Positions 16,946-24,421 of a stretch of 64,000 nt of DNA are shown piece after piece. The first letter of the stretch is position 1, and every line of letters begins with the position of its first letter. Location of the stretch: assembly GCA_013822395.1 (NCBI GenBank), contig PNKK01000001.1, positions 84,970 to 148,969 on the forward strand. The letters are read 5' to 3'. The notes beneath the pieces were generated by a model. The model was not told where the DNA came from. It did not search any database and saw nothing but the letters and a program-made list of their open reading frames with translations. Position numbers and translations under genes: made by a program. Origin of the DNA: Anaerolinea sp. GTDB lineage: Bacteria > Chloroflexota > Limnocylindria > Limnocylindrales > CSP1-4.

Positions 16946-17024
16946 CCCGTCAGGGCTCCATGGTCGCTCTGTTGTGGCCGCCTGGGGCCCGTCAGGGCTC
17001 CCTGGTTGCGACGTTGTAGCGGCG
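16946..17024. repeat. 42-bp-offset direct repeat duplicating the vapC 3' end
   Basis: CCCGTCAGGGCTCC starts two imperfect ~37-bp copies at 16946 and 16988. The second includes the stop and last ~10 codons of the PIN toxin gene; the first is a diverged copy in the spacer. It looks like a tandem duplication of the gene end. Confidence 0.7.
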
Positions 17025-17387
17025 CTGCTCGCGATCGAAGGTTGCGAGCGTTGCCGCCCCGGCCTCTTGCGCAGCGGCGACGATGAGGGCATCCGAGATC
17101 GGCCGGCCCGGGAGGGCGCGGGCGCGAACGAGCGCCTCCACGACGATGTCCGTCCGTCCGCCGAGGATCCTGACGTTCTCGCGCTGGACGAGCCCGATGA
17201 GGCCCTCGACGATGTCCGCCTGCTCCACCCCGTACTGTGTTCGCAGCACGTGGGCGCACTCGGCAAGCGCGACCGGCGATACCCCGATCTCCTCGTCGCC
17301 GTCGACCAGGACCGCAGCGCGCCGTGCCTGGTCAGCCGGCGTCCCGACGAGGTAGCGGACGAGGACCGACGTGTCGGCGGCGATCAC
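16992..17387 (-). CDS. vapC: PIN-domain ribonuclease toxin (VapC-like)
   Basis: A 131-residue PIN-domain protein. The acidic active-site residues of the fold are present: D5 in AADTSVLVRYL, E43 in ALAECAHVL, D99 in ISDALIVAAA and D118 in ATFDREQ. VapC toxins cleave RNA (often initiator tRNA or rRNA) when freed from their antitoxin. The GTG start overlaps the antitoxin stop by 4 nt, the usual antitoxin-first order. No changes in catalytic residues are seen. Confidence 0.9.
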   Translation of the reverse strand: MIAADTSVLVRYLVGTPADQARRAAVLVDGDEEIGVSPVALAECAHVLRTQYGVEQADIVEGLIGLVQRENVRILGGRTDIVVEALVRARALPGRPISDALIVAAAQEAGAATLATFDREQRRYNVATREP

Positions 17388-17641
17388 AGCAGGCGGTCCG
17401 GATCCGGCGTCTCCCAGGCCGCCCGGCGGAGCTCCTCCCAGGTCTCATCCGGCGGCGTCCGCGTCGCCCGATCCCGCAACGACCCGGCGAGCGAGCGTCG
17501 ATGCCGCCCCGGGATCACGTCGATGACGATCCGTCCATCCTCGACCCGCTGCACGGCCTCGTCCCCGGCGTAGATCCCGAGCTGCTCCCGGATCGCCTTC
17601 TCGATCGTGATCTGTCCGCGTTCACCTACTCGGCTCGTCAT
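17384..17641 (-). CDS. vapB: AbrB/MazE-type antitoxin of the PIN toxin
   Basis: An 85-residue antitoxin. The N-terminal swapped-hairpin DNA-binding domain reads SRVGERGQITIEKAIREQLGIYAGDEAVQRVEDGRIVID, the SpoVT/AbrB signature. The C-terminal acidic tail (DETWEELRRAAWETPDPD) would wrap the toxin. ATG 17641 is chosen since it is the canonical MT-S-x-V/G start and lies 10 nt after a TATGGT box. An ATG at 17656 would overlap that box. The dyad upstream suggests autoregulation. Confidence 0.88.
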   Translation of the reverse strand: MTSRVGERGQITIEKAIREQLGIYAGDEAVQRVEDGRIVIDVIPGRHRRSLAGSLRDRATRTPPDETWEELRRAAWETPDPDRLL

Positions 17642-17651
17642 GGTAGGGCCA

Positions 17652-17688
17652 ACCATATTGAGATACGTGTTGGTGCGTCAAGTATGGT
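17652..17688 (-). promoter_or_regulatory. Promoter and dyad for the vapBC operon
   Basis: Minus-strand TTGACG (17681-17676), 18 bp and TATGGT (17657-17652) form a good promoter. The two boxes lie in opposite arms of an inverted repeat (ACCATATTGA at 17652-17661 and TCAAGTATGGT at 17678-17688), the geometry expected for repression by the antitoxin. The dyad also places a TATGGT box on the plus strand. Confidence 0.6.
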
Positions 17689-17773: not shown

Positions 17774-18541
17774 TCAGCCGGAGTCGGCTCCGTCGGGTTC
17801 ATCGAGGCCGAGCGGGAGTCGACGGATCAGCGCCAATACGGGGGCGCTGCCGGCGCCGGCATCGGTCGTGGCCTCAGCATCCGGTGCCGGGTTTCCCGCC
17901 GCCGTCCCGCCCCCGACCGGGATGAACCGCCACAGGCGGCTGAGGACCCCGGGCAGATACGGGCTGGTGCGCCGGCGGGCGAGGACCCCCGCCAGCCCCT
18001 GGGCCGCGACGGCCGCGAAGAGAGCGCGACCCTCGCCCGGGATCGCGGGCACGGCGAGCACCTCGTCACCCGGGTGGAGGACGCGGCGGAGCTGGTCGCG
18101 TCGCCGTTCGAGCGGCATGGAGAGCAGCGACCGGCCGTCGAGGTGGAGGAGATCGAAGGCGAGGAACGCGACCGGCCGGCCGGACTCACCGGCAAGGCGC
18201 CGGGTCAGTTCGGCGGGATCGGCCCGCCCGCTCGGATCCACCACGACGAGCTCGCCGTCGAGGACCGCGGAGCGGGCCGCGACCCGGACACCAAGGCCCG
18301 CCAGCTCGGCCGGGACGAGCGCCAACGGCCGGCCGTCCTCGCCCAGGAAGACGACCTCGCCGGCACCAGGACGGGCCGCCGGCCCGACGATCGCGAGTAC
18401 GCGCCGGCCGCCCCATGCGGGCTCGAAGAGATGGTCGGACGAGTCGAACGGCTCGGCGAGGGGGCGAGCCAGCATCGGGCGCAGCGTGGCCGGCGGGTTC
18501 GGCATCGCCGGCTCGAGCCGCAGCGACAGCTGGTCGGTCAT
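17774..18541 (-). CDS. ATP-dependent DNA ligase-fold protein lacking the nucleophilic lysine
   Basis: A 255-residue homologue of the adenylation domain of LigD/LigC-type ligases. Motif I, normally E-P-K-W-D-G-x-R, here reads EPAWGGRR (40-47), so the AMP-accepting Lys and the following Asp are replaced. Motif III (AVLDGELVVVD) and IIIa (AFLAFDLLHLDG) are well preserved, whereas motif IV is altered to AGVLARRRTSPYLPG. No OB-fold domain follows; the C-terminus is low complexity. It could be a nucleotide- or DNA-binding scaffold rather than a ligase. A TACCAT box lies 9 nt upstream of the ATG. It stands alone on the minus strand between vapBC and deoC. Confidence 0.8.
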   Translation of the reverse strand: MTDQLSLRLEPAMPNPPATLRPMLARPLAEPFDSSDHLFEPAWGGRRVLAIVGPAARPGAGEVVFLGEDGRPLALVPAELAGLGVRVAARSAVLDGELVVVDPSGRADPAELTRRLAGESGRPVAFLAFDLLHLDGRSLLSMPLERRRDQLRRVLHPGDEVLAVPAIPGEGRALFAAVAAQGLAGVLARRRTSPYLPGVLSRLWRFIPVGGGTAAGNPAPDAEATTDAGAGSAPVLALIRRLPLGLDEPDGADSG

Positions 18542-18902
18542 CGCCCGGCGATGGTAGCCGGTAGACTCGCTTGCCGCGGCGGGCGGGCACACCATCGGAG
18601 GCATCCGATTTCCTGTGCCGCAGGTCGGCAGCTGATCCTCTGCCTCGCGCTGGTCCTCCCCCCTCCACTCCCGTTGATCGATCTCGTTCATCGATCCGGC
18701 ACCATCTGAGCGTGGCCATGGACCGATTCCGACGAATCCGCGGGCCGGCCGAGCGTGGCTGTCTCGGATCTGATGAATGACGTCGATCACGGGCGGGACT
18801 CGGGAGCGGCGGCCCCGGGGAGTCAGCACGGACGTTGGGATGCATACCACACGATCGGAAGCAGTCGCCACGCGCGGGGATCGGCGGTATCCTCACCCTC
18901 CC
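18542..18902. other. 361-bp divergent intergenic region
   Basis: No gene or RNA is recognised between the ligase-like gene and deoC. A GAGCGTGGC unit occurs twice (around 18704 and 18750). TACCAT (18556-18551, minus) and TATCCT (18888-18893, plus) are probable -10 elements for the two divergent genes. Confidence 0.5.
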
Positions 18903-19967: not shown

Positions 19968-20900
19968 ATGACGCGACGCCCGCTCGTACTCGCCGGACTC
20001 GTCATCTTCTTCGCGGCTGCCTGTTCCCGGGGCGCCTCGCCGTCACCGACAGCGGGGCCCACACCAACCCCGACGCCCGGACCCGCCCTCACCCTCGCCG
20101 AGCTGAAGGCCGCGATCATCGATCGATTCGGGCCGCTCTGGTACTGCGACCCGGACTTCTACCCGATCGCGCGCCGCGAGGAGATCGACGCCGCCCGCCA
20201 GCGCTGGCCGGAGGTCATGGCCGACACGGACGCCGTCGAGGCGATCGCCGCGAGGCAGGGTCTGGATCCTGCGGCCGACTTCACCGACGAGCAGAAGCTC
20301 GCCATCTACCAGGCCTGGAAGGTCCTCAACGCGATCGCGCTCGAGCCCATCGGCAACGACACGTACCGCTTCGACTACCTCGCCCAGCCGCCCGCCGGCG
20401 CCACCGACGGCACGAGGACGGGCGGCACGATCACCGCGGCCGGCGAGATCACCGTCGAGCAGGAGGCCCCCGCGGGCGAGCCCATCTGCCCGATCTGCCT
20501 GGCCCGGGGCACGGCGATCGACACTCCGGATGGGGGAGTGCGGGTTGAGACGCTCCGGATCGGGGACGCGGTCTGGACGCTCGACACGCACGGAGCGCGG
20601 GTGCGCGGCACCGTTACCGCGGTGGGGTCAATGCCGGCGCCCGCCGGTCATCGCGTCGTCCGGCTCGTCCTTGCCGACGGGCGGACGGTGACCGCATCCT
20701 CGGGCCACCCGCTCGCCGACGGCCGCCGTCTCGGGGACCTCCGTGCCGGCGATGCCGTGGACGGCTCGCTCGTCGTGTCGGCGGACCTCATCGCCTACGA
20801 CGGCGCGCGGACCTGGGACATTGCCGTCAGCGGCCCGACCGGGACCTACCTCGTCGACGGGATTCCGGTTCGGAGCACGATCGACCAGTCCAGGTCATGA
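19968..20900 (+). CDS. Lipoprotein with C-terminal Hint (hedgehog/intein) domain
   Basis: A 310-residue predicted lipoprotein: hydrophobic leader ending FAAAC (lipidated C19), a Ser/Thr/Pro tether to ~40, and a helical domain of unknown function (~41-165, LTLAELKAAIIDRFGPLWY...). A Hint domain then starts at C177 in CPICLARGTAIDTPDG. Typical Hint features follow: RVETLRIGDAVWTLD, VRLVLADGRTVTASSGHPLADG (block-B His 247), LRAGDAV and the final TWDIAVSG...TYLVDGIPV strands. The terminal His-Asn of inteins is missing, as in hedgehog-type domains that cleave at their N-terminal Cys without splicing. Autocleavage is inferred, not shown. It follows deoC by 81 nt. Confidence 0.82.
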   Translation: MTRRPLVLAGLVIFFAAACSRGASPSPTAGPTPTPTPGPALTLAELKAAIIDRFGPLWYCDPDFYPIARREEIDAARQRWPEVMADTDAVEAIAARQGLDPAADFTDEQKLAIYQAWKVLNAIALEPIGNDTYRFDYLAQPPAGATDGTRTGGTITAAGEITVEQEAPAGEPICPICLARGTAIDTPDGGVRVETLRIGDAVWTLDTHGARVRGTVTAVGSMPAPAGHRVVRLVLADGRTVTASSGHPLADGRRLGDLRAGDAVDGSLVVSADLIAYDGARTWDIAVSGPTGTYLVDGIPVRSTIDQSRS

Positions 20901-20938: not shown

Positions 20939-21490
20939 TCAGAGCGGCTTGAGAGAGGGCCCGAACCCGAGGGTCTCACCGAGCTTGGCGCGCACCTGTC
21001 GCAGCGTGTCGGCCATGAGGGTTCCCCGGCCCCGCTCCTCGAGAAGTTCGGCCTTCTCGACGACGAACACGAGATCCGTCTGGGCGATCGAGTCCGTCCG
21101 CAGGCCTCCGTCAGGATGTCGAACGAGAACGTCGTGCCGGCCCTGGTATTCAATCTGGGAGCTGCAGAGGACGACGACGACCGTCGGGTGGAGGGGATCC
21201 CGGCAGTCGGTCTTGCTCGAGACGACGATCACCCATCGGCTGTCTCGCCGCGGCGGTTCGCCTGGTGCGCTCGTTGCTAGGAGGCGCTCGATGCTCGCCC
21301 GCGTCGGGGTCCGGCCGCCGTTCTCGTACTTGCGGAGGGTCTCGGGCGCGATGCCGGCGCGCCCGGCGAGCTCGGCCTGGGTCAGGCCGAGGCGCTGACG
21401 CTCGGCCCGCAGGAGGGCGCGCCAGCCCGACTCGGGCGCCGGCCCCGCCTGCGTCCGCTTCGCCGATCCCGATCGATCCTGTGGCCCCAT
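20939..21490 (-). CDS. XRE-type HTH fused to a MazF/PemK-like toxin domain
   Basis: A 183-residue protein with two parts. Residues 22-72 form a Cro/C1 helix-turn-helix (LLRAERQRLGLTQAELAGRAGIAPETLRKYENG). Residues ~80-176 resemble a MazF/PemK barrel: RWVIVVSSKTD, HPTVVVVLCSS, VLVRHPDGGLRTDSIAQTDLVFVVEKAELL and a final LRQVRAKLGETLGF helix. The usual first MazF strand (GEIW...DLxP) is absent or replaced by the HTH. This could be a toxin-antitoxin fusion, a self-regulating toxin, or a regulator built on an inactive toxin fold. The start ATG has GAGGG 4 nt upstream. It converges on the Hint lipoprotein gene. Confidence 0.72.
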   Translation of the reverse strand: MGPQDRSGSAKRTQAGPAPESGWRALLRAERQRLGLTQAELAGRAGIAPETLRKYENGGRTPTRASIERLLATSAPGEPPRRDSRWVIVVSSKTDCRDPLHPTVVVVLCSSQIEYQGRHDVLVRHPDGGLRTDSIAQTDLVFVVEKAELLEERGRGTLMADTLRQVRAKLGETLGFGPSLKPL

Positions 21491-21613: not shown

Positions 21614-23050
21614 TCAGGGTTGATCGCCTCCGAGGCGGTCGAAGCCCAGCATCTGATCGAGATCGTAGCCGCGGACCTGCTCGCTTCGCAGTTGTGGCTC
21701 GAGGCCGCCTCGTCCCCACAGCACCAGCAGCAGCTCGTCGATGGGGCTGGGCACCGCCGCAGCCTTGGCCAGCAGCTGGACGATCTCGCCCTGACCCAAC
21801 GGACGCTCCTGCCACTTGGCCCCCCCGAGCAGGACCGATCGGGCGCCGCGCATCCCCAGCACGTCGACCTCGACGGCCGGACCGGTCGTGCTCCACCAGC
21901 GACCCACCACCAGGTCCTCGGGGAGCTCACGGGACGCGACCAGCTGCGCCGCGTGCTGGCGAGAGAGCTCTTCGAAGACCCAGCCCAGGTGCTTCTGCCA
22001 CTGCTCGCGCCGGCGGCGGAGCACCGCCCGTCCCTGGCCGCCGCCGATCTGCGCCGCATCCGAGTAGAGCACCGAGAACCAGAAGGCCAGGTATGGATCG
22101 TCGATCTCATAGAGGGGTCGGGTCCGGCGCGGTGAGCCGAGCGCCACCGACCGACGCACGAAGCCAGAGTGGACGAGGACCTCAAGCGGGTGCTCGATCC
22201 GCTGAGCGGCTTCGTCGGCGATCTCTGACTGACGCGTCCGACCGCGGCCGATGGCGGCCAGGATTCGGGGGTAGCCGCCGACGTCGGGAAGCTCCTCGCG
22301 GAGGATGCCGAGCGCGTCCTCGAAGAGAAGGCCGCCGGGCGTCGCCGCCAGGCGCACCAAGTTTGCCTCGGTGCTCACCTCGGGATCCCAGCGGCGCAGG
22401 TGGAGCGGATAGCCGCCGCACGCGGCGTACGCTTCCAGGAAGGCCGGCGCCGACAGGCGCGGCAGGAACACGCGGGCTCGGGGCGCCGGGAGGGGATCAA
22501 GGCGCTTGGCCAATGTCGGCCGGCCGCGCAGGGCGCCACCGGGACCCAACATCAACTCGATGGTGCCCACCGCCGAGCCGGTGAGTGCCAGCATCAATCG
22601 CGTCCCGGGCCGCAGATGGTCCCACACGACCTGCACGATGCTGGCGAAGCCACGGGTCGACTGCGCGAGATAGGGGACCTCGTCGAGCACGACGACGAGC
22701 GGCTCCTGCCGGGCCAGGGCGGCGACGAAACGGAGGGCGGCCTCCCAGCTGGCGAAGGAGCCGCCCCCGAGCTCGAGGGCCCCTTGTCCGAGGTCGCGAG
22801 CGATCGCCTCGGCGAAGCGGCGCAGCTCCACCGCCTCCGCCTGCTGGGTAGCCCCGAAGAAGAGCGCGCGCTTGCCCTGAACGAAGTGCGAGAGGAGGAA
22901 CGTCTTGCCTACCCGCCGCCGTCCCCAGAGCACGACCAGCTGCGGCGCCTCGTCCAGCGTCTGGCTCCACAGCGTCTCCAGTTCAGTCGCTTCCGCGTCG
23001 CGCCCCGGGGACCGTTCGAGGCCACGGGCCCATGTCAGTGGTAGGAGCAC
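21614..23050 (-). CDS. Archaeal-type ATPase with DUF234-like C-terminal nuclease-like domain
   Basis: A 478-residue P-loop ATPase. Walker A is WGRRRVGKTFLL (~42-53), Walker B is LVVVLDEVPYL, and LALTGSAVG follows as sensor. After the ATPase domain comes a winged-helix-like region (RTRQSEIADEAAQRIEHPLEVLVHSGFVRR), LYEIDDPYLAFWF, then a DUF234-type domain with WSTTGPAVEVDVLG resembling a PD-(D/E)xK core. Such ATPases are widespread in archaea and patchily present in bacteria, with unknown function and frequent island location. The GTG start at 23050 lies just downstream of a TTGTA/TACAA palindrome. The Fic gene is upstream on the same strand. Confidence 0.85.
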   Translation of the reverse strand: MLLPLTWARGLERSPGRDAEATELETLWSQTLDEAPQLVVLWGRRRVGKTFLLSHFVQGKRALFFGATQQAEAVELRRFAEAIARDLGQGALELGGGSFASWEAALRFVAALARQEPLVVVLDEVPYLAQSTRGFASIVQVVWDHLRPGTRLMLALTGSAVGTIELMLGPGGALRGRPTLAKRLDPLPAPRARVFLPRLSAPAFLEAYAACGGYPLHLRRWDPEVSTEANLVRLAATPGGLLFEDALGILREELPDVGGYPRILAAIGRGRTRQSEIADEAAQRIEHPLEVLVHSGFVRRSVALGSPRRTRPLYEIDDPYLAFWFSVLYSDAAQIGGGQGRAVLRRRREQWQKHLGWVFEELSRQHAAQLVASRELPEDLVVGRWWSTTGPAVEVDVLGMRGARSVLLGGAKWQERPLGQGEIVQLLAKAAAVPSPIDELLLVLWGRGGLEPQLRSEQVRGYDLDQMLGFDRLGGDQP

Positions 23051-23191: not shown

Positions 23192-24421
23192 TCAGGACCG
23201 CCGGCCCGAGCCCTTCCCGGGCGATGGCCGTCGCGGCTCTCCGGTGCGCGTGGGCGTCAGAGCCTCGAATTCGAACTCGTCGAGCAGATCCAGCAGCGCC
23301 GGCGCCTCCCATGCGCGGTTCCGCTTCCGCCCGATTGTCACCGGCCGGAGGACCTTCGCCCCCTCGAGGCGCAGCACGGCCTCGCGGGCCTGCGGATACG
23401 AGACACCCAGCTGCGAAGCAGCGGTATTGATGTCGATCACCGGTCGCGCTGCCAGCAGCCCGATGAGCCGCTGGGTGGCCGAGGTGCGACGGGGGCGGCC
23501 GGCGACCTCGCGCCACGCCGCCTGGAGGCCCGCGAGCGCCTCGCCGAGCCTTGCCGCAAGAACGGTCGAGTCGCGGAGCGCGTGAGCGAACCGGGTCGCC
23601 CACCCGGCCAGGTCGCCCGTTCGGTACAGGATGAGCCCCTCCACATATGCGCTTGCGTTGGCGACGAGGACGAGGCTGATCGGCGGCACGAACCGCGGCG
23701 CGACGGCGCGCCGCCGGAGGATGACGTGGATGAGCGCTCGGCCGACACGGCCGTTGCCGTCGGCGAATGGGTGGATCGTCTCGAACTGCGCGTGCGCGAT
23801 CGCCGCCTGGGCCACCGGCGGCAGGTCGGAGCGGCTGATGAACGTGCAGAGGTCGTCCAGCAGAGGCCGGACCTCGGAGGCCGGCGGCGGGATGAACTCG
23901 GCCCGGCGGGGACTCACCGACGAGCCGCCGATCCAGTTCTGTCGATCGCGGATCCTCCCACCGAAGCGCTCGTCCTCGGTGCCGGCGAAGAGGATCCGGT
24001 GGAGCTCGAGCAGGTCCTCGGTCGCGACGGTGTCGGCTCGCGCACCGAGCTGGATCGCCTGCTCCATCGCCAGGACGTTCCCGACGACGCCGCGGGCCGT
24101 CCGATCTGCAGCGGCTGGATCGAGGACGGCCTTGGCCAGTCGGCGGTGCGAGAGGCGGAGGCCCTCGATCTTCGACGACGCCACGCTCTCGGCACGGAGG
24201 AGCTGTCGACTGAGCGCCTCGAGCCCGGAGAGTTCACGAGCGACGTCGAGATCTCGAACGGCCCGTTCGGCTTCGGCAATCGACTCCGCGACCGAGAGGG
24301 GGAACACCGGATCGATCGAGGAGACTGGATCTGGAACAAACGCCTCGTACGCGAAGGTGTGCGCCGACTCGCCATAGCCGCCCGCGTGACCTTCCCAGAG
24401 CAACCGAACCGTCCGAGGCAT
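23192..24421 (-). CDS. Fic-family AMP-transferase with C-terminal winged helix
   Basis: A 409-residue Fic protein that would transfer AMP (or another nucleotide group) to a target hydroxyl. The N-terminal Fic_N region includes ASSKIEGLRL (82-87 SSKIEG), matching the inhibitory [S/T]xxxE[G/N] motif, so it is predicted to be class II and auto-inhibited. The catalytic motif HPFADGNGRVGR (217-228) is complete. Residues ~310-390 form a winged helix (INTAASQLGVSYPQAREAVLRLE) common in stand-alone Fic/DOC regulators. It is 141 bp upstream of the DUF234-type ATPase on the same strand. Repeated GTGAAGG elements in its promoter suggest autoregulation. Confidence 0.93.
   Translation of the reverse strand: MPRTVRLLWEGHAGGYGESAHTFAYEAFVPDPVSSIDPVFPLSVAESIAEAERAVRDLDVARELSGLEALSRQLLRAESVASSKIEGLRLSHRRLAKAVLDPAAADRTARGVVGNVLAMEQAIQLGARADTVATEDLLELHRILFAGTEDERFGGRIRDRQNWIGGSSVSPRRAEFIPPPASEVRPLLDDLCTFISRSDLPPVAQAAIAHAQFETIHPFADGNGRVGRALIHVILRRRAVAPRFVPPISLVLVANASAYVEGLILYRTGDLAGWATRFAHALRDSTVLAARLGEALAGLQAAWREVAGRPRRTSATQRLIGLLAARPVIDINTAASQLGVSYPQAREAVLRLEGAKVLRPVTIGRKRNRAWEAPALLDLLDEFEFEALTPTRTGEPRRPSPGKGSGRRS

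Follow-up and report, generated by a model that had tools for sequence, protein, structure and literature searches.

A lipoprotein family of Chloroflexota with a C-terminal, splicing-dead Hint domain and predicted self-cleavage

A lipoprotein gene ending in a Hint domain

The window, that is, the whole stretch of 64,000 nucleotides analysed here (Anaerolinea sp., contig PNKK01000001.1), carries at 19968-20900 on the plus strand a gene coding for a lipoprotein with a Hint domain at its C-terminal end. The predicted ORF is real: the frame is open, full-length homologues in the same genus are 71-74% identical, and the gene is under purifying selection, with a dN/dS of about 0.2-0.4 against close relatives, synonymous changes outnumbering non-synonymous ones in the N-terminal and Hint halves alike. 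The features of the gene, with the evidence for each in brackets, are as follows:

19968-20900 (+): whole gene, 310-aa lipoprotein with a C-terminal Hint domain (open frame, full-length homologues, purifying selection)
19968-20024 (+): signal peptide and lipobox AAAC, with Cys19 (20022-20024) as the predicted lipidated residue (sequence)
20025-20084 (+): linker rich in Pro, Thr and Ser, residues 20-39 (sequence)
20085-20495 (+): N-terminal alpha+beta domain, residues 40-176 (AlphaFold2)
20145-20147 (+): Cys60, predicted disulfide partner of Cys174 (62 of 65 homologues)
20487-20498 (+): junction C174-P175-I176-C177, predicted cut between Ile176 and Cys177 (conservation in 59 homologues)
20496-20882 (+): Hint domain, residues 177-305 (Pfam Hint_2, Foldseek)
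20697-20708 (+): block-B motif S244-S-G-H247 with the putative catalytic Ser and His, family consensus SPGH (conservation in 59)
20811-20819 (+): block-F motif T282-W-D284 (conservation in 59)
20874-20879 (+): S303-T304, in place of the terminal Asn and the +1 nucleophile of inteins (conservation in 59)

The signal peptide ends at Cys19 in the sequence FAAAC, the linker that follows it is about 10 to 78 residues long in homologues, and the protein closes with V-R-S-T-I and five further residues; across the family, about 1-12 residues follow the Hint domain. The original prediction for this locus, a lipoprotein bearing a Hint domain with an initiating cysteine at 177 and a block-B histidine at 247, is confirmed: the lipobox cysteine is present, an anchor is kept among the 65 homologues, and both Hint residues stand where they had been placed.

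A Hint domain that keeps its N-terminal residues and lacks the splicing end

The Pfam Hint_2 profile (PF13403) matches the protein from residue 176 with 37.1 bits against a cut-off of 28.4 (E 5e-9), the match covering only the first 45 of the 147 profile positions. An AlphaFold2 model built with 59 sequences reached a pLDDT of 92.4; when its Hint half was compared with the PDB using Foldseek, the first match was a BIL domain of Clostridium thermocellum (2lwy, E 1e-7), followed by mini-inteins and, lower down, by hedgehog (1at0), with a Foldseek probability of 1.00 to the BIL, to the inteins (RecA, DnaB and gp41-1) and to hedgehog. With a profile score above the curated cut-off and a Hint fold, the domain belongs to Hint_2 and to the Hint superfamily.

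The alignment of 59 homologues, in which the mean column identity is 52-60%, contains a set of invariant residues (Pro175, Ile176, Cys177, Leu178, Trp203, Asp237, Arg239, Ser244, His247, Thr282, Asp284, Gly292 and Tyr294). At the junction, the proline, the isoleucine and the second cysteine are found in 59/59 sequences and the first cysteine, Cys174, in 57/59. Loss of Cys177 or His247 among homologues had been named beforehand as the sign that would speak against the prediction; both residues are kept in all 65.

The other end of the domain is altered. True Chloroflexota Hint domains end in YDIEVEGPHNFVAEGLIVHNS, versus YDLLPSGPTGIYFAGGIPLAST in the lipoprotein family, where few residues follow. 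The block-F HN has become TG, the terminal His is replaced by G, A, S or R, the Asn by Ser303 and the +1 residue by Thr304, so that both His-Asn pairs are gone, in agreement with the expected loss of the intein end. A conserved set of putative catalytic residues, without the residues of splicing, is thus shown by the alignment. The gene had also been said not to contain an intein inserted in a host gene, and this holds: there is neither a His-Asn end nor a C-extein, and Ser303 is found in 58 of the 59 sequences.

A fixed domain pair spread across Chloroflexota

Modelled alone with AlphaFold2, the N-terminal domain reached a pLDDT of 93.8 and consists of five helices followed by a four-stranded sheet. 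It had been described as a novel helical domain; the novelty stands, as no significant relative was found in Pfam, among PDB sequences or folds, or among viral folds, and the purely helical character gives way to an alpha+beta fold.

To appreciate the spread of the family, 400 Chloroflexota genomes were sampled, of which 48 have a long, strong homologue (E below 1e-40), the lower-scoring hits being other Hint proteins or matches to the signal peptide. The profile of the N-terminal domain and that of the whole protein retrieved these same 48 genomes, the former adding only G088, where the gene is cut by the contig end; the N-terminal domain without Hint was never found among the 400 genomes. 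The Chloroflexota Hint domains of other architectures that were compared score far lower against the family profile. The two domains are, as these searches show, a fixed pairing.

The family occurs in at least 12 taxonomic families within the 400-genome sample, a further sample adding more, and a match is present in 32 of 101 relatives; the records returned by one scan of genome contigs were all from Chloroflexota. In the source assembly, which is about 70% complete, the Hint_2 match of this gene product is the only one. Phage and plasmid records queried with the Hint domain of a relative gave no match, and viral contigs yielded no confirmed relative; on these grounds, we rejected a mobile or phage origin. 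Plasmids queried with P0001 at E up to 10 returned only distant Hint_2 proteins, rhizobial and related, of another architecture.

Proposed reaction and predicted direction of shedding

A lipobox cysteine is found in 64 of the 65 homologues (51 by pattern and 13 more by inspection of the sequences), and the remaining one, L091, has a transmembrane segment in its place. As all homologues checked carry a lipid or membrane anchor on the N-terminal domain, the predicted cut after residue 176 would shed the Hint domain and not the N-terminal domain, whose release by cleavage had originally been proposed; this part of the prediction has to be reversed.

The gene product is best described as belonging to a fixed-architecture, splicing-dead family of putative Hint autoprocessing proteins, for which cleavage is predicted. 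The reading we favour, somewhat more probable than its contrary in our judgement, is that of a precursor exported and anchored by a lipid, in which the C-terminal Hint domain acts once, as a self-processing unit with a specialisation for N-terminal chemistry. Cleavage after residue 176 would be the natural prediction from the residues retained: His247, aided by Ser244 and Asp284, would enable Cys177 to attack the Ile176 carbonyl in an N-to-S acyl shift, and the resulting thioester on Ile176 would be resolved by water or by an outside nucleophile, either a thiol or an amine. The Hint domain would then be shed, and the lipid would keep the N-terminal domain attached to the membrane's outer face, with Ile176 as its last residue or as its point of linkage to the nucleophile. 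One has to keep in mind that a beta-branched isoleucine at position -1 is unfavourable for a fast N-S shift or thioester hydrolysis; its invariance suggests, therefore, a reaction that may run slowly or only once triggered.

Three conserved cysteines

The three cysteines conserved in mature homologues are Cys60, Cys174 and Cys177. Among the 65 homologues, L076, L078 and L117 lack both Cys60 and Cys174 (replaced by Val and Tyr) and keep Cys177, and no homologue lacks just one of the two. These three sequences form one group on the tree (support 90/45), and the joint loss probably represents a single event; it is, therefore, weak as covariation. The simplest reading of this pattern would be a Cys60-Cys174 disulfide, located on the N-domain side of the predicted cut and leaving Cys177 free; such a bond fits better than a Cys174-Cys177 one because Cys174 is never lost without Cys60. 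With this disulfide, the C-terminal tail of the N-terminal domain would be held in place, and Cys177 would be the only free thiol. A natural comparison for this disulfide exists in genome G272, which has two copies of the gene, L075 with the Cys60/Cys174 pair and L076 without it.

A second reading of the same residues is a redox-gated Hint domain, in which a Cys174-Cys177 disulfide across C(-3)-P-I-C(+1), formed in the oxidising exterior, would block the reaction until reduced, and which Cys60 could join through thiol-disulfide exchange. The motif is present in 62 of 65 homologues, and there are precedents among inteins: redox state controls activity both in the Ssp DnaE intein with an engineered Cys(-3) and in the Pyrococcus abyssi MoaA intein, which has a native Cys(-3)-Cys1 disulfide (PMC3922620). 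Like the lipoprotein, these inteins have a cysteine at -3 and the catalytic one at +1; unlike them, the lipoprotein is not a spliced host protein, and its third conserved cysteine, Cys60, is another possible partner. A phmmer search also picked the structures of redox-trap inteins 3nzm and 4gig, aligning EPICPICLARGT with DPFCPGCLSFGT over this junction, at an E of 1.6 that is not significant alone. Against such a gate stands the loss of Cys174, always paired with that of Cys60; moreover, in the clade that lacks Cys174 all other Hint residues are retained, and a redox trap is, thus, not essential. We regard this gate as rather unlikely.

Other explanations for the conserved Hint domain

The Hint domain could be catalytically dead and retained in the lipoprotein for its folded form, with a role in binding or structure. 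The unfavourable Ile(-1), which is invariant, would fit such a role, as would the constant association of the N-terminal domain with Hint as one working unit; however, at a mean column identity as moderate as that of this family, the nucleophile, S-x-x-H and T-x-D are exactly what stays invariant, and we consider a dead domain unlikely.

A stalled splicing reaction would make another use of the altered end. In this scheme, Cys177 would pass the N-terminal domain on to Thr304 at position +1, and the branched ester could not be resolved since Ser303 replaces the Asn, the product being a branched, ester-linked protein. Thr304 is found in 58/59 sequences, and positions 303 and 304, where inteins have their terminal Asn and +1 nucleophile, hold hydroxyl residues in 59/59. 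However, the conserved S-T may serve the fold alone, neither block F nor block G retains its helper histidine, and esters are labile, so this outcome seems very unlikely to us.

In polymorphic toxins, the Hint domain sits just before the C-terminal toxin (PMC3482391), and toxins with Hint do exist in Chloroflexota, such as the RHS-like protein in L092, where a C-terminal tail follows Hint; for the lipoprotein, a toxin or immunity module whose Hint domain releases a C-terminal toxin is contradicted by the domain order, with nothing beyond the short tail mentioned above, and by the lack of a conserved partner gene, which leaves it extremely improbable, as had been anticipated.

Comparison with known Hint systems

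The hedgehog Hog region and the lipoprotein share a secreted N-terminal domain followed by a C-terminal Hint domain, a Cys1, a T/S-x-x-H motif and a similar fold (1at0); the counterpart of the hedgehog T-x-x-H is here an invariant S-x-x-H, with Ser for Thr, next to the equally invariant Cys177. The isolated hedgehog Hint part performs the same first step as the one proposed here: it forms a thioester, and hydrolysis or hydroxylamine completes the cleavage (PMC4695875). Unlike Hog, the lipoprotein has no conserved equivalent of Asp303, no second catalytic cysteine and no sterol-recognition region, and its anchor is already N-terminal. Between Gly209 and Asp237, the segment of the Hog-specific aspartate (Asp303, position 46), no Asp is conserved, and a near-ungapped register places position 46 near Ser221; likewise, no cysteine after 177 is conserved in the 59 aligned homologues where Hog has its second one at the Hint end. 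Without an Asp303 equivalent or a sterol-recognition region, for which too few residues follow Hint, a cholesterol-type transfer, suggested initially by analogy with hedgehog, is not supported and is unlikely. A broader, phylum-wide hedgehog-like logic can be imagined, in which a surface domain and a splicing-dead Hint domain, fixed as a pair, are kept under selection, and in which a thioester that Hint forms at the C-terminus of the membrane-anchored domain is passed on to a nucleophile of the cell surface, perhaps under the control of a disulfide relay between cysteines 60, 174 and 177; we hold this scheme to be distinctly unlikely.

BIL domains offer a closer match. Type A BILs have a C-terminal His-Asn, which the family does not have; type B BILs are Hint domains with an N-terminal nucleophile and no C-terminal intein motif, for which N-terminal cleavage is expected (PMC4031507, PMC7765530). 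The lipoprotein shares with type B the Hint fold, the N-terminal cysteine and the absence of an intein-like C-terminal motif. Type B BILs, however, lie in hypervariable regions of non-conserved proteins, whereas the lipoprotein has one architecture across the phylum and nothing after Hint.

By description only, the family also resembles a poorly characterised group of bacterial proteins that Buerglin (2008) termed "yet another subgroup", with a C-terminal Hint domain, a pair of conserved cysteines upstream of it and, in some members, secretion signals (PMC2362128); the lipoprotein has a C-terminal Hint domain, an export signal and, upstream, Cys60 and Cys174. The members named there come from Myxococcus (MXAN_6253), Stigmatella, Reinekea, Photorhabdus (plu1731), Serratia and Yersinia (PMC2362128), gamma- and deltaproteobacteria as these were then named, and the account given of this subgroup describes no lipid anchor for them. 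Hint_2 (PF13403) proteins of alphaproteobacteria, for their part, share with the lipoprotein the domain start, block A and block B; the rhizobial members compared here differ from it in the second half of the domain and in their long C-terminal extensions.

The familiar roles of Hint domains are, for the most part, those of a selfish intein, of a module that releases a toxin or of the hedgehog processor. Here, the domain is kept for its own sake: across a bacterial phylum, a single-copy gene encodes the same fixed pair of domains, and the Hint part has an invariant N-terminal chemistry and lacks a splicing end. Should the prediction hold, the family would be a small bacterial system for asking why a cell keeps a self-cutting lipoprotein, and a natural case for asking what receives a Hint thioester outside animals.

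Gene neighbourhood

Neighbouring genes are conserved only within clades: deoC lies upstream in the window, MoxR-DUF58-transglutaminase genes stand beside the gene in family f22, and glutamine synthetase and NAD synthase in f12. No partner gene common to different clades was found; with neighbours shared only inside clades, there is no guilt by association to draw on, and an operon partner was rejected.

Several genes around the locus deserve mention in their own right. The convergent neighbour (20939-21490, minus strand) codes in one ORF for a 183-aa protein in which an HTH_3 helix-turn-helix is fused to a PemK/MazF-like toxin domain. A Fic/DOC protein with Fic_N (23192-24421, minus strand) is encoded beside a DUF234/ATPase_2 protein (21614-23050, minus strand). 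On the other side, an ORF with an ATP-dependent DNA ligase domain (17774-18871, minus strand) is divergent from deoC, and a PIN-domain gene (16992-17656, minus strand) adjoins a MazE/AbrB-type antitoxin gene, the two likely forming a toxin-antitoxin pair. Finally, the RHS-like protein in a relative's genome (L092, 1-1458) has an intact His-Asn Hint domain and, after it, a C-terminal tail, as is classical for toxins.
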